Shown piece by piece: positions 33,425 through 40,851 of a stretch of 64,000 nucleotides of DNA. Source of the DNA: Flavobacteriaceae bacterium. Lineage in GTDB: Bacteria > Bacteroidota > Bacteroidia > Flavobacteriales > Flavobacteriaceae. The notes beneath the pieces were generated by a model. That model searched no databases. It was not told where the DNA came from and saw nothing but the letters and a program-made list of their open reading frames with translations. Where the stretch lies: contig JAGYKX010000005.1 of NCBI GenBank assembly GCA_018401115.1, forward strand, positions 806,001-870,000, given 5' to 3'. Position 1 is the first letter of the stretch, and every line of letters starts with the position of its first letter. The position numbers were made by a program, and so were the translations under genes.

Positions 33425-34036
33425 ATGAAAAAATTATTTATGACCCTTAGCGCATTATTAGTAGCCACTTCTATTGCAATCGCAACTCCCTCAAATACCA
33501 AAGAAAAAACTACTGAAAAAACAACAAAAGCTGTTGAAAAAAAAGTAATTAACACTGAAGCGAGTACCATTACTTGGAAAGCCTACAAAGTTACTGGATC
33601 TCATGAAGGCACTATTAATTTGGCTTCTGGGAACTTAGATTTTAATGGAACTATTTTAACAGGCGGTGCCTTTATCGTAGACATGACTACTATTAATACC
33701 ACTGACTTAGAAGGAGAGTACAAGCAAAAATTAGATGGACATTTACACTCTGATGATTTCTTTGGAACTGCCACTCACAAAACAGCTTCTTTAGAAATTA
33801 CATCTGTAAAAGCTTCCGGTAAGAATGCGTACGATGCAACTGCTAACCTTACGATTAAAAATATTACCAAAGAAGTAAACTTCACTATCTCCGTATATGG
33901 AAGTAAAGCAACGGCAAATTTAAAAGTAGACCGCTCTCAATTTGACATTCGTTACGGATCTGGTTCATTCTTTGACAACTTAGGCGACAAAACCATCTAT
34001 GATGAATTTGACTTGGTGGTAGACCTACAATTCTAA
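33425..34036 (+). CDS. YceI family protein
   Basis: Signal peptide; STITWKAYKVTGSHEGTINLASGNLDF; VDRSQFDIRYGSGSFFDNLGDK. Confidence 0.93.
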   Translation: MKKLFMTLSALLVATSIAIATPSNTKEKTTEKTTKAVEKKVINTEASTITWKAYKVTGSHEGTINLASGNLDFNGTILTGGAFIVDMTTINTTDLEGEYKQKLDGHLHSDDFFGTATHKTASLEITSVKASGKNAYDATANLTIKNITKEVNFTISVYGSKATANLKVDRSQFDIRYGSGSFFDNLGDKTIYDEFDLVVDLQF

Positions 34037-34081: not shown

Positions 34082-34117
34082 AATCACAAAGCCTTCAGGG
34101 GCTTTGTGATTTTTTTT
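34082..34117 (+). terminator. Terminator after YceI gene
   Basis: AATCACAAAGCC-ttcagg-GGCTTTGTGATTttttttt: 12-bp stem. Confidence 0.9.
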
Positions 34118-34148
34118 GCTCAAAGCTTTTATATTCTGTAAGGTTTAC

Positions 34149-34156
34149 TATATTTG
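34149..34156 (+). promoter_or_regulatory. Candidate trp operon -7 element TATATTTG
   Basis: TAnnTTTG match 4 nt before the trpL ATG; -33 position 34128-34130 is TTT (not TTG), 18-nt spacing. Confidence 0.5.
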
Positions 34157-34160
34157 ATAT

Positions 34161-34217
34161 ATGATTCAAAATAATTCAAACAATTGGTGGTGGAACAACT
34201 TACAACAAACGCTGTGA
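34161..34217 (+). CDS. trpL: Trp leader peptide MIQNNSNNWWWNNLQQTL (not in ORF track)
   Basis: atg att caa aat aat tca aac aat tgg tgg tgg aac aac tta caa caa acg ctg tga; three tandem Trp codons upstream of a terminator and trpE. Confidence 0.85.
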   Translation: MIQNNSNNWWWNNLQQTL

Positions 34218-34242
34218 GCTAAGCACTACTTTGATATATTTT

Positions 34243-34277
34243 AAAGGCTTGTCTTCACAGACAAGCCTTTTTATTTT
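34243..34277 (+). terminator. trp attenuator terminator
   Basis: AAAGGCTTGTCT-tcac-AGACAAGCCTTTttatttt: 12-bp perfect stem, upstream of trpE. Confidence 0.9.
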
Positions 34278-34318
34278 CAACATCACTTGATCCGATATTA
34301 TCTTTGAAACACCAATAG

Positions 34319-34344: not shown

Positions 34345-35745
34345 ATGAGTTACGCTTTAAAAACCCATTTCAAAAAAATTCTTGCAGACACCATTACACC
34401 TGTGAGCGTCTATTTAAAAGTAAGAGACCGTTACCCAGCCAGTATTTTATTGGAGAGTAGTGATTACCACGCCAACGACAATAGTTTTTCATATATCTGT
34501 TTTAACCCCATTGCGCACATTGAGGTAAAAGACCGTCAGATTACAAAAGCATATCCAGATGGCAGCACACAAATAACGCCTATTACATCAGAAACAGATA
34601 TTCCTGCTACACTCACTGCTTTTTCACAGGAGTTCTCTAGTGAAAAACAAGATTTTAAATTCATTACACAAGGACTGTTTGGTTTTATGACCTATGACGC
34701 CGTACAGTATTATGAAGACATTCAGATCGCTAAAAAAGAAGGGGGACAAGACCTTCCTGAATTATATTATGCGGTATACCAGAACGTTATTGCCATTAAC
34801 CATTTTAACAATGAGGCCTATATTTTTGCACACTGCTATGACCAGCCCAGCAATGTAGCGACTATAGAACAATTAATTGCTGTTAAAAACTTTGCCACCT
34901 ACCCTTTTAAAACCGAAGGCGAACCGACTATTAATATCGAGGACGAAGATTTCAAAACACTGGTAGAAACGGCCAAGAAACATTGCCAAAGAGGAGACGT
35001 TTTCCAGTTGGTACTCTCCAGAAGATTCACCCAAAAATTTAGTGGAGATGAGTTTAATGTTTACCGAGCGCTAAGAGCTGTAAATCCCTCTCCTTACCTA
35101 TTTTACTTTGACTATGGGAATTTCAAAATTTTTGGGAGTTCTCCAGAAGCACAGCTAGTAGTCAAAGATCAGAAAGCAGAAATCCATCCCATTGCAGGTA
35201 CCTTTAAAAGAACCGGAAACGATGAAAAAGACGCCACGCTAGCCAAGGAACTCACAGAAGACCACAAAGAAAATTCAGAGCATGTAATGCTGGTAGACCT
35301 AGCGAGAAACGACCTCAGCAGGCATGGAAAAATGGTCAGGGTAGAAAACTATCGAGAGGTACAGTTTTTTTCACATGTCATTCACTTGGTGTCTAAAGTC
35401 ACCGGTATAAAAAAAGCAGACACACCTACTATGAATATAGTGGCAGACACATTTCCTGCTGGGACCCTCAGCGGTGCGCCTAAGCATAAAGCCATGGAGC
35501 TTATTGAAAAATACGAACCTACCCCAAGGGGCTACTACGGAGGCGCCATTGGCTTTATGGATTTTGAAGGTAACTTTAACCACGCCATCATGATCAGAAC
35601 CTTTTTAAGCAAGAACCATCAATTGCAATACCAAGCGGGCGCAGGAATTGTTGCTGCTTCAGATGCAGCTTCTGAATTGCAAGAAACCTACAATAAGTTA
35701 GGAGCACTCACCAAAGCATTGTCCTTGGCAGAAGACATTAAATAA
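34345..35745 (+). CDS. trpE: Anthranilate synthase component I
   Basis: FQLVLSRRF, VNPSPYLFYFDYG, FPAGTLSGAPKHKAMELIEKYE, first gene of trp operon. Confidence 0.96.
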   Translation: MSYALKTHFKKILADTITPVSVYLKVRDRYPASILLESSDYHANDNSFSYICFNPIAHIEVKDRQITKAYPDGSTQITPITSETDIPATLTAFSQEFSSEKQDFKFITQGLFGFMTYDAVQYYEDIQIAKKEGGQDLPELYYAVYQNVIAINHFNNEAYIFAHCYDQPSNVATIEQLIAVKNFATYPFKTEGEPTINIEDEDFKTLVETAKKHCQRGDVFQLVLSRRFTQKFSGDEFNVYRALRAVNPSPYLFYFDYGNFKIFGSSPEAQLVVKDQKAEIHPIAGTFKRTGNDEKDATLAKELTEDHKENSEHVMLVDLARNDLSRHGKMVRVENYREVQFFSHVIHLVSKVTGIKKADTPTMNIVADTFPAGTLSGAPKHKAMELIEKYEPTPRGYYGGAIGFMDFEGNFNHAIMIRTFLSKNHQLQYQAGAGIVAASDAASELQETYNKLGALTKALSLAEDIK

Positions 35746-35779: not shown

Positions 35780-36379
35780 ATGACACACATATTACTCATA
35801 GACAATTACGACTCATTTACTTATAACCTAGTGCATTATTTAGAGGAATTAGGCGCTCAGGTAACGGTTCGTAGAAACGACAAATTAAACATAGAAGAAG
35901 TGGCTGCTTTTTCGCACATTGTATTGTCTCCTGGACCTGGTATTCCAGACGAGGCAGGACTACTCAAAGAAATTATAGCCACATATGCTACAACTAAAAA
36001 AATACTGGGGGTATGTCTAGGGCAACAAGCTATTGCGGAGGTATTTGGGGGGCGCTTAGAAAATTTAAGCGAGGTATACCATGGGATCGCTACACCCATT
36101 GAAATTATAGATCCCCAAGCGATATTATTTAAGGACTTACCTACTGAGGTGGTTGTGGGGAGGTACCATTCTTGGGTGGTATCTGAAGATCTACCAGAAT
36201 CTTTGAAAGTAACTGCCAGGGACCATAAGGGACAAATCATGGCCATTGAACACAATGACTACCCAGTACATGCTGTACAGTTTCACCCAGAATCCATTCT
36301 AACCCCTAGTGGAAAGAAAATGCTGGCCAACTGGTTGGGAGTCTCCTGGGAATTTAAGCCAGAAGAAAAAATGTACTAG
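35780..36379 (+). CDS. trpG: Anthranilate synthase component II (glutamine amidotransferase)
   Basis: LIDNYDSFTYNLVHYL, GVCLGQQAIAE, AVQFHPES. Confidence 0.97.
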   Translation: MTHILLIDNYDSFTYNLVHYLEELGAQVTVRRNDKLNIEEVAAFSHIVLSPGPGIPDEAGLLKEIIATYATTKKILGVCLGQQAIAEVFGGRLENLSEVYHGIATPIEIIDPQAILFKDLPTEVVVGRYHSWVVSEDLPESLKVTARDHKGQIMAIEHNDYPVHAVQFHPESILTPSGKKMLANWLGVSWEFKPEEKMY

Positions 36380-36414
36380 TCCCTAATTCAACTAAAAGCT
36401 ACTAAAAATTGAAT

Positions 36415-37401
36415 ATGAAAGAAATACTCAACAGACTCATCCAGCACGAAGTGCTGAGCAGACAAGAATCTAAAGACATACTCGTAGGGATTGCCAACAA
36501 AGCTTACAACGAATCTGAAATTGCCTCTTTTCTCACCGTGTATATGATGCGTAATATTCAACTAGAGGAATTAGAGGGGTTTAGAGACGCACTTTTAGAG
36601 TTATGTCTGGCAGTAGATCTTTCCATTTATGAGCCTATAGATTTATGTGGCACAGGAGGAGATGGAAAAGATACGTTTAATATCTCTACCCTAGCCTCTT
36701 TTGTGACGGCTGCCAGTGGGATCAAAGTGACTAAACACGGGAATTACGGCGTATCTTCTTCTTGTGGGAGCAGTAATGTTATGGAAGCATTGGGTATTAA
36801 ATTCACCAATGACAAAGATTATTTAGAAAAAGCCCTAGACCAGGTAGGGATCTGTGTGTTACACGCCCCCTTGTTCCACCCAGCTATGAAGCAGGTAGCG
36901 CCCATTAGAAAGGCCTTAGGGGTCAAAACATTCTTTAATATGTTGGGTCCTATGGTAAACCCTGCTTTTCCTACCCATCAAATGGTAGGGGTATTTAATT
37001 TAGAACTAGCTAGAATTTACGGATACCTGTATCAAAAAACAAACAAGCAATACACTATTGTACATGCCTTAGATGGATACGATGAAGTGTCTCTGACAGG
37101 GGCAACAAAAGTCATTACCAGGGCAAATGAAATGGTCATAGATCCTGCTCATTTCAATGTAAAAACCTTACAAGCAAAAGACATTTCCGGAGGGGAATCA
37201 GTGGCTTCTGCCGCGGCAATTTTTGTAGATATTCTCAGTGGAAAAGGCAGTGAGGCGCAAAACAATGTGGTTTGTGCCAATGCAGCCCTAGCCATCAATA
37301 CGGTTCAAAACAACGGTATTCAAACCGCTTTTGAACAGGCCAAAGAGACCCTATTATCTGGTGCAGCACTCAAAAAATTACAGCAATTACAAGCTTTATA
37401 A
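36415..37401 (+). CDS. trpD: Anthranilate phosphoribosyltransferase
   Basis: DLCGTGGDGKDTFNISTLASF; KHGNYGVSSSCGSSNVMEALG; start probably MKEILNR at 36415. Confidence 0.97.
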   Translation: MKEILNRLIQHEVLSRQESKDILVGIANKAYNESEIASFLTVYMMRNIQLEELEGFRDALLELCLAVDLSIYEPIDLCGTGGDGKDTFNISTLASFVTAASGIKVTKHGNYGVSSSCGSSNVMEALGIKFTNDKDYLEKALDQVGICVLHAPLFHPAMKQVAPIRKALGVKTFFNMLGPMVNPAFPTHQMVGVFNLELARIYGYLYQKTNKQYTIVHALDGYDEVSLTGATKVITRANEMVIDPAHFNVKTLQAKDISGGESVASAAAIFVDILSGKGSEAQNNVVCANAALAINTVQNNGIQTAFEQAKETLLSGAALKKLQQLQAL

Positions 37402-38187
37402 ATGAATATTCTAGACAAAATAATAGCCGACAAAAAGATAGAAGTAGCCCTTAAAAAAGGCCTCGTTCCCACCAAATACCTGGAAAAGCACCCCTTGTTT
37501 GAGCGTCATATAAACTCTATGGTTGCCCAGATAAAACAAAGCAAGAGTGGTATTATCGCCGAGCACAAAAGGCGCTCTCCTTCTAAAGATGTTATTAATA
37601 ATACGCTCAAAGTCCCCACCGTGGTGAAAGGCTATGAAAAGGCAGGCGTTTGTGGTATTTCTGTACTTACAGATGGCCCCTATTTTGGAGGGGCACTTGA
37701 AGACCTTTTGATTGCCAGGGCCACTGTAGAGACGCCCCTTTTGAGAAAGGAATTCATTGTTGATCCCTACCAAATTATAGAAGCTAAGGCCCATGGGGCC
37801 GATGCCATTTTACTCATAGCTGCAGTACTCACAAGAGCAGAAATTCACAGCTTATCTGCCCTCGCACAGTCGCTGGGTTTAGAGGTGCTTTTAGAAGTTC
37901 ACAACTTAGAAGAACTGGAAAAATCAATGATGCCATCTTTAGACCTCATAGGGGTGAATAACAGAAACCTAAAGACCTTTGAAGTAAGTTTGGACACCTC
38001 AAGAGCACTCTCTACCGCTATCCCCTCAGATTTTTTAAAGATTTCTGAAAGCGGCATTAGTAATGTCTCAGCCATTAAAGACTTAAAAACGCATGGGTAT
38101 AGCGGCTTTCTAGTAGGTGAAAACTTTATGAAGACAAATGATCCTGGAGCTACAGCCCTAGCATTTATAAAACAAATAGAAAGCTAA
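37402..38187 (+). CDS. trpC: Indole-3-glycerol phosphate synthase
   Basis: IIAEHKRRSPSK, GVNNRNLKTFEVSLDTS. Confidence 0.97.
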   Translation: MNILDKIIADKKIEVALKKGLVPTKYLEKHPLFERHINSMVAQIKQSKSGIIAEHKRRSPSKDVINNTLKVPTVVKGYEKAGVCGISVLTDGPYFGGALEDLLIARATVETPLLRKEFIVDPYQIIEAKAHGADAILLIAAVLTRAEIHSLSALAQSLGLEVLLEVHNLEELEKSMMPSLDLIGVNNRNLKTFEVSLDTSRALSTAIPSDFLKISESGISNVSAIKDLKTHGYSGFLVGENFMKTNDPGATALAFIKQIES

Positions 38188-38188
38188 T

Positions 38189-38890
38189 ATGGGAGTTTCT
38201 AACACACATATGCCCTTTGAAACACCTAAATTGAAAGTTTGTGGCATGAGGGTGCCAGAAAATATTAGCGCTGTGGCGGCACTAAAACCATCTTATATGG
38301 GTTTCATTTTTTGGGAACCCTCCAAACGGTATATTCAAAATGCTATTCCTAAAATAGATCCCAGTATTCAGAAAATAGGCGTTTTTGTAAAGGCAAGCCC
38401 TGATTTCATTGTAAAAACTGTCCAAGAAAATGATTTACAAGGGGTGCAATTACACGGAGGTGAAACCCCACAAGATTGCAAAGCAGTGCTTGAGGCTTGG
38501 GAAAAACAACCCGACGCAAACAACACACCTCTGATTCTTATCAAAGCTTTTTCAGTGGCAGACGAATTTGACTTTTCTGTCCTGGCCCCTTACGAGGCCT
38601 ATTGTGATTTTTTTCTTTTTGACACCAAGGGGAAACTCCCCGGAGGCAATGGCTATTCCTTTTCTTGGAAACTCTTAGCATCATATCCAAGCAATATCCC
38701 ATACTTTTTGAGTGGTGGCATTGGTTTAGCGCAAGTAACTGATTTGGCAAAATTTTTAGAAAGCAAAGCCTCAAAAATGTGTGCTGTTATGGATGTAAAT
38801 AGTACTTTTGAGGCAGAAGATTACATTAAAAACACCCAGGATTTAAACTTATTTATAAACGCCTTAAAAAATAGATTCTCTACAGAATAA
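38189..38890 (+). CDS. trpF: Phosphoribosylanthranilate isomerase
   Basis: LKVCGMRVPENISAV, GVQLHGGE, FLSGGIG. Confidence 0.95.
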   Translation: MGVSNTHMPFETPKLKVCGMRVPENISAVAALKPSYMGFIFWEPSKRYIQNAIPKIDPSIQKIGVFVKASPDFIVKTVQENDLQGVQLHGGETPQDCKAVLEAWEKQPDANNTPLILIKAFSVADEFDFSVLAPYEAYCDFFLFDTKGKLPGGNGYSFSWKLLASYPSNIPYFLSGGIGLAQVTDLAKFLESKASKMCAVMDVNSTFEAEDYIKNTQDLNLFINALKNRFSTE

Positions 38891-38896
38891 AACGCT

Positions 38897-40084
38897 ATGA
38901 AAAAGACTTACCACGTAGATGGAAATGGGTATTACGGCTCCTTTGGAGGCGCCTATATTCCTGAAATGCTATTTCCCAATACTGAAGAACTCAGGACCCA
39001 ATATCTAGACATTATGGGCTCTGAAAGTTTCAAAAAAGAATTTAACTATCTCCTTAGAGATTATGTGGGAAGGCCAACCCCACTTTATTTTGCGGAAAGA
39101 CTCTCTGCTCTTTACAACACTAAGATCTATCTTAAAAGAGAAGATTTATGCCACACAGGAGCGCATAAGGTAAACAATACCATTGGCCAAATCCTAATGG
39201 CTAAAAGATTGGGTAAAACAAGAATCATTGCAGAGACCGGAGCTGGGCAACACGGTGTAGCCACCGCCACCGTTTGTGCGCTAATGGGCATGGAATGTGT
39301 GGTGTATATGGGCGCCGTAGATATTAAAAGACAGTCCCCAAACGTCGCTAGAATGAAAATGCTAGGAGCTACTGTTAGGGCCGCTGAATCTGGCAGTAAG
39401 ACACTTAAAGACGCGACCAATGAGGCCATAAGAGATTGGATAAACAACCCAGTGAACACCCATTATATAATTGGGTCTGTAGTAGGGCCCCACCCTTATC
39501 CAGATATGGTAGCTCGTTTCCAATCGGTGATTTCTAAAGAGATCAAAAGCCAATTATTGGAAAAAGAAGGACGAGAAAATCCAGACCATGTTGTTGCCTG
39601 TGTGGGTGGAGGAAGTAATGCTGCAGGAGCTTATTACCATTTTTTAGATACCCCTGAAGTCAATATTATAGCGGTAGAAGCCGCAGGGAAAGGAATTCAC
39701 ACCGGAGAAAGTGCTGCTACCTCTGCACTAGGAAAAGAAGGCATTATTCACGGAAGTAAAACCCTATTGATGCAAACCCAAGACGGGCAAATTACGGAGC
39801 CTTATTCTATCTCTGCAGGCTTGGATTACCCTGGAGTAGGCCCAATGCATGCGCATTTATTTGAATCTAAGCGTGCCGAATTTATATCAGTAACGGATCA
39901 AGATGCTATGGCTGCCGGATTACTGGTCTCTAAAATGGAGGGTATTATCCCAGCCATTGAGACCTCTCATGCCTTCGCTATTTTTGAAAACAGGCCCTTT
40001 GGTAAAGAAGAATTGGTGGTGGTTAACTTATCTGGCCGTGGAGATAAAGATTTGAATACCTACATAGATTATTTTAAATTATGA
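38897..40084 (+). CDS. trpB: Tryptophan synthase subunit beta
   Basis: [32 protein letters not shown]. Confidence 0.99.
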
Positions 40085-40851
40085 GTAACAGAATAAATCA
40101 AAGAATGGCAGACCCTAAAAAAGTCTTGTCCATCTATTTTACGGCAGGCTATCCTGAAAAAGAAGACACCGTAAAGGTCTTGAACCAACTGCAGGAAGCG
40201 GGCGTAGATCTAGTAGAAATAGGACTCCCATTTAGCGACCCTTTAGCAGACGGCCCCACCATTCAAGACAGCTCAACTGCCGCCCTAAAAAATGGCATGC
40301 ATACCCAACTGCTCTTTGATCAACTAAAAGACATTCGAAAAAGCATTCACATTCCCCTAATTGTGATGGGCTATTTTAACCCCATGCTACAATATGGCGT
40401 AGACGCCTTTTTGAGTCAGTGTGCCCAAATAGGAATTGATGGGATTATTATGCCAGACCTGCCCTTAGCAGAATATGAGCAGCACTACAAAAAGCTCTAT
40501 GAAAAATACGGCATAAAAAACATTTTTTTAATTACCCCTCAAACCTCAGATGCACGAATTAAAGCTATTGATCAGGCGTCAGATAGTTTTATTTATTTAG
40601 TGAGTACTGCAAGTGTGACTGGAAGCAAAAGTGGTTTTGGAGTAGAACAAGAAGCGTATTTTGAAAGAATTGCCCAAATGAACCTCAAAAATCCCCTAGT
40701 AGTTGGTTTCGGGATTCATGACGCAAATACCTTCTCACAAGCTACAAAACATACCTCTGGAGCCATTATAGGTTCTGCTTTTATTAAGACTATTACTGAA
40801 AAAGGACTTGCGGGAATAAGCCCATTTATAAAAAGTCTTAGACCTCTCTAG
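40081..40851 (+). CDS. trpA: Tryptophan synthase subunit alpha
   Basis: [36 protein letters not shown] overlap with trpB. Confidence 0.98.

Follow-up and report, generated by a model that had tools for sequence, protein, structure and literature searches.

A predicted tryptophan attenuator of the Bacteroid-trp leader family upstream of the trpEGDCFBA operon in a Flavobacteriaceae bacterium

The window, that is, the whole stretch of DNA analysed here, comprises 64,000 nucleotides of a Flavobacteriaceae bacterium (GenBank assembly GCA_018401115.1, contig JAGYKX010000005.1, positions 806,001 to 870,000) and contains the complete trpEGDCFBA operon, every gene of which lies on the + strand. The gap between trpE and the preceding gene is occupied by a short leader ORF and a terminator. 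An earlier note, made from the sequence alone, had described this gap as a trp attenuator, and all of its coordinates were correct when checked against the sequence. The features of the locus are as follows.

33425-34036, the preceding gene, with its own terminator-like hairpin near 34084-34116
34149-34156, + strand, TATATTTG, a match to the Bacteroidota -7 box TAnnTTTG, with the predicted +1 at 34161, the first base of the leader start codon
34161-34217, + strand, ORF of the trp leader peptide, 18 codons, MIQNNSNNWWWNNLQQTL, read from the sequence
34185-34193, + strand, three consecutive Trp codons TGGTGGTGG, the putative control codons, which double as the 5' arm of the 1:2 hairpin
34186-34231, + strand, 1:2 (protector) hairpin from RNAfold, GGUGGUG 34186-34192 with CACUACU 34225-34231 plus an inner stem CUUACA/UGUGAG
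34212-34224, + strand, segment 2, the 5' arm of the antiterminator, made of the last sense codon, the stop codon and the next bases
34215-34217, + strand, stop codon of the leader
34243-34270, + strand, intrinsic terminator (3:4), a perfect 12-bp stem (arms 34243-34254 and 34259-34270) with the loop TCAC and a U-rich tail
34345-35745, + strand, trpE (ATG at 34345), first gene of the putatively regulated operon
35780-40851, + strand, trpG, trpD, trpC, trpF, trpB and trpA, in this order, with names assigned from their translations

The RNA of positions 34140-34290 folds at -34 kcal/mol, as compared to -21.2 kcal/mol for dinucleotide shuffles (RNAfold; z -4.0, 0/200). The intrinsic terminator stands between the leader ORF and the first structural gene, as in a classical attenuator. 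The earlier note had also proposed a competing antiterminator built on the 3' end of the leader ORF, and its pieces are found at the expected places (CTGTGA at 34212-34217 with TCACAG at 34255-34260, and AAGC at 34221-34224 with GCTT at 34247-34250); this pairing is kept in the relatives, including compensatory changes. As originally written, this antiterminator reaches only -7.3 kcal/mol, and the best pairing is longer, at about -15 kcal/mol. The duplex of segment 2 and segment 3, the latter being the terminator left arm and loop, has an energy of -14.7 kcal/mol in the window, which was matched by 0.25% of mononucleotide shuffles. The remark that a clear 1:2 hairpin was apparently lacking proved to be wrong, since RNAfold pairs the Trp codons with 34225-34231, and the same 1:2 stem is carried by the consensus of the Rfam family RF01692. 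All of the 114 Flavobacteriaceae-type loci folded better than the mean of versions in which the 3' part was shuffled and the Trp codons were kept in place (mean z -2.6). A simple duplex test that paired the Trp codons with downstream sequence gave a weak result, with 30% of shuffles as good in the window.

The comparative analysis covered 143 Bacteroidota trpE loci, those of Flavobacteriaceae along with a thinner sampling of other families and orders, with a few duplicates among them (L002/L031, L006/L032 and L010/L081). A Trp-rich short ORF was present before trpE in 143/143 loci, 142 of which were found by script and one, L099, with a longer N-terminal part, by eye; conservation at every related trpE locus fetched is therefore far beyond chance. 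Most leaders carry three consecutive Trp codons, seven carry two (L029, L030, L095, L112, L121, L134 and L135) and L133 carries WLW; few columns of the leader are as conserved as the Trp codons. The terminator was missed by the script criteria in one locus only, L136. In the aligned trpE upstream regions both the Trp codons and the stems are conserved, and the 3:4 and 2:3 stems covary. Among 60 non-redundant Flavobacteriaceae sequences, 99.7% of cells in the terminator stem are paired, and three of its pairs have changed on both sides. For the antiterminator core, formed by the end of the leader ORF with the terminator loop, the paired share is 97.5%, and double changes occur at two of its pairs. 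Covariation of the antiterminator within Flavobacteriaceae is modest (3 double-change cells) because the element is nearly invariant. The clade of the window has CTGTGA with the partner TCACAG, most relatives have TCGTGA with TCACGA, and in L097 and L102 the stop codon has changed from TGA to TAA and the loop of the terminator mirrors this, pairing TCGTAA with TTACGA. Where the reading frame ends earlier or later (L016, L023, L024, L026 and L092), TCGTGA stays put, outside the frame or before the later stop, so what is conserved is the RNA element, not the codons. In 24 divergent loci the own segment 2/3 duplexes averaged -13.3 kcal/mol versus -9.6 kcal/mol for swapped ones, with a permutation p of 5e-5 that is approximate, since some of the 24 loci are closer relatives of each other than the rest.

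Conservation also extends to the C-terminal WWWxNLR of the peptide. This would fit an additional role in trans of the terminated leader RNA or the peptide, besides its role in cis, as reported for peTrpL of Sinorhizobium meliloti (PMC7298713). The same part, however, encodes bases of the 1:2 hairpin, which can explain its conservation, and we consider such a role improbable.

The exact promoter box ends at most 10 nt before the leader ATG in 83/114 Flavobacteriaceae-type leaders, and at a distance of 4-5 nt in 53/114, as compared to a background of 0.7% of all ATGs in the window. In Flavobacterium psychrophilum the TAnnTTTG box spans -12 to -5, according to a transcriptome study (PMC9723704), and with this spacing the box at 34149-34156 would therefore place +1 at the first base of the leader ATG. 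Our analysis thus predicts a leaderless mRNA for the leader in the window and an almost leaderless one in most Flavobacteriaceae. A gap of 14-21 nt between box and ATG occurs in a minority of loci, so the leaderless form appears to be common, not universal. Leaderless mRNAs are reported to account for 5.5% in F. psychrophilum (PMC9723704), and 5' UTRs shorter than 10 nt for 3.7% in Bacteroides thetaiotaomicron (PMC7366714). This leaderless start is possibly less documented than the attenuator itself.

Another exact match to TAnnTTTG, TATCTTTG, was found at 34300-34307 between the terminator and trpE, and it may be a chance occurrence or a local secondary promoter. It ends 37 nt before trpE. 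If it were instead the main trp promoter, it could bypass the attenuator, and the upstream unit would make an independent small RNA or peptide that hardly affects trpE. But just 6/138 related loci have an exact box between terminator and trpE, the terminator ends at most 40 nt from trpE in 96/141 loci, which leaves little space for a promoter, and the Trp codons and antiterminator would be left without a reason for being kept; we regard this explanation as very improbable. Given these short gaps and the rarity of boxes in them, trpE should be transcribed through the attenuator in most loci. Several hundred bases (up to 469 nt) separate the terminator from the trpE start in L042, L046, L057, L068, L070, L075, L103 and L108, and some of these long gaps hold repeat-like text, e.g. 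'tttccgcgaaggcggaaat'.

The earlier note had called the attenuator unannotated. This is true insofar as the element falls below the Rfam cut-off, but it is not unknown, because it belongs to RF01692 (Bacteroid-trp, the Bacteroidete tryptophan peptide leader RNA), which was described as a cis-regulatory RNA of Bacteroidetes by Weinberg in 2010 (PMC2864571). At the gathering threshold, an Rfam scan of the window returned tRNAs only. A relaxed scan placed the whole RF01692 model over 34145-34253 with 47.6 bits (E 5e-5), its sole match in the genome, which is 1.4 bits below the curated cut-off of 49 bits; the element escaped annotation since its score is just under this value. The same-genus locus L006 scored 52.3 bits, loci of the same family reached up to 88.5 bits, and many exceeded 49. 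As these loci are orthologous to that of the window by position and sequence, the shortfall in the window is one of score and not of kind. The element shares with RF01692 the phylum, a short Trp-codon ORF placed before trp genes, a 1:2 stem that takes in the Trp codons, and the terminator left arm AAGGCUUGUC. The model covers the 1:2 stem and the terminator left arm, without the 2:3 antiterminator and the terminator right arm.

Trp operons of other phyla are controlled by TRAP-like proteins, T-boxes or small-molecule binding. Control of the terminator by such a factor in trans (a TRAP-like protein, T-box/tRNA contact or small-molecule binding), with an incidental ORF, is the least probable explanation of all, as the Rfam scans of the window gave neither a T-box nor any convincing leader besides RF01692, the Trp codons are highly conserved and their spacing to segment 2 is fixed, with the antiterminator core 29 nt past the first TGG in 98/117 loci.

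Attenuation that depends on the Trp codons is thus the best reading, as the earlier note had proposed, and comparison between loci supports it strongly, with Trp codons, terminator and antiterminator conserved across Flavobacteriaceae and into other orders. Very probably, the element is a ribosome-mediated transcription attenuator of trpEGDCFBA and a member of the Bacteroid-trp leader family. An antiterminator that excludes the terminator and would be freed by stalling on the control codons is indicated by sequence and folding. In constrained folds, in which the edges of the ribosome footprint are assumptions, RNA masked to 34203 (ribosome stalled at the third Trp codon) with arm 4 unmade formed the antiterminator (-15.1 kcal/mol), and RNA masked to 34229 (ribosome at the stop codon) formed the terminator (-16.9 kcal/mol). 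After synthesis of arm 4, the terminator is the stabler fold even under the stall (-19.9 kcal/mol). The terminator beats the antiterminator at equilibrium, therefore the switch must be kinetic, with its outcome set while transcription is under way, as it is in the classical attenuator.

The start site, the ribosome stalling and the direction of the response that we infer would combine in the following way. Transcription would begin at the leader ATG or right beside it, and a ribosome would load on the 5' end and trail the RNA polymerase. With ample Trp-tRNA, the ribosome would reach the stop codon at 34215-34217 and cover segment 2, so that the 3:4 terminator forms and transcription halts before trpE. 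Under a shortage of charged tRNA-Trp, the ribosome would stall on the Trp codons and block the 1:2 hairpin, segment 2 would pair with segment 3, and the polymerase would read into trpE. Without translation, the 1:2 hairpin would sequester segment 2 and termination would win.

Leader-peptide attenuation is the classical mechanism of the Escherichia coli trp operon, whose leader has two Trp codons. The element resembles that leader in its Trp codons, its competing 1:2, 2:3 and 3:4 pairings and its terminator before trpE, whereas it differs in having three Trp codons, the stop codon itself in the antiterminator 5' arm, a predicted leaderless start and a TAnnTTTG promoter. The Proteobacterial Trp_leader of Rfam had no match among window hits up to E 10. 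Leaderless leader peptides are known from Actinobacteria, namely those of Streptomyces venezuelae trpE and Corynebacterium glutamicum ilvBNC; there the leader ORF is likewise translated from the mRNA 5' end, but the phylum and the promoter are different. Within the family of the window itself, the transcriptome of F. psychrophilum gave clues to leader-peptide attenuation before amino-acid operons, and that study proposes attenuation from these data and names, in its main text, conserved 5' elements of Flavobacteriaceae before hisG and pheA (PMC9723704). The attenuation reading is right, and it is already established in outline, because RF01692 was listed in 2010 (PMC2864571) and because of these clues. 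Among the papers searched for trp attenuation in Bacteroidetes, none was a dedicated experimental study.

Across 300 sampled Bacteroidota genomes, scanned with stricter filters, RF01692 matched almost only in Flavobacteriaceae. Trp-rich leaders before trpE, nearly all with terminators, were nonetheless found with no RF01692 match in genomes of other families and orders (G042, G055, G061, G066, G091, G095, G107, G122, G130, G134, G138 and G150), the phylum sample having covered TrpE relatives of E 1e-100 or stronger. In two genomes of another family, the loci L117 and L118 have two WWW leader ORFs in tandem before trpE, e.g. MITINKIWWWQSKL and MINSKLNNWWWPVLTQYVGQSRYKNI, with a terminator-like hairpin after each. 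The trp attenuators of Bacteroidota may constitute one class-wide system that reaches well past the Rfam model, with a leaderless or near-leaderless ORF as a recurrent design (the first ribosome loading as the RNA emerges), the ORF end inside the antiterminator and tandem attenuators in one family, a generalization to which we give an even chance.

Two other leaders were seen in the same genome outside the window. One of them, L153 (G000:C5:422492-422532, - strand), is a His-rich leader MTQTHTHHHIIYCAQAR, preceded by a TACTTTTG box at a distance of 10 nt and followed by a strong terminator and hisG, and GCTCA near the ORF end can pair with TGAGC in the terminator; it is likely to be a his attenuator. 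The other, L157 (G000:C8, - strand, upstream of the pheA match 177784-178317), is a Phe/Tyr-rich leader MTLSTNFWNLFYFYFYFNRSMGLF followed by the terminator TCCCGC-TGTT-GCGGGA, a T-run and pheA, in which GGGACTTT at the ORF end can pair with AGAGTCCC; it is likely to be a Phe attenuator. A search for leaders rich in Ile/Val/Leu or Thr codons, made around ilvD, leuA-like and homoserine dehydrogenase genes, turned up nothing convincing.

The find itself chiefly confirms a family described in 2010. On present evidence from sequence, the element would be a sensor that turns the tryptophan-making genes on under tryptophan shortage by means of a tiny Trp-rich peptide and competing RNA hairpins. It offers a well-conserved and testable case of translation-coupled attenuation in a phylum without Shine-Dalgarno-led initiation, and the predicted leaderless start, if true, would make it a defined system for how ribosomes match the pace of the polymerase in Bacteroidota.
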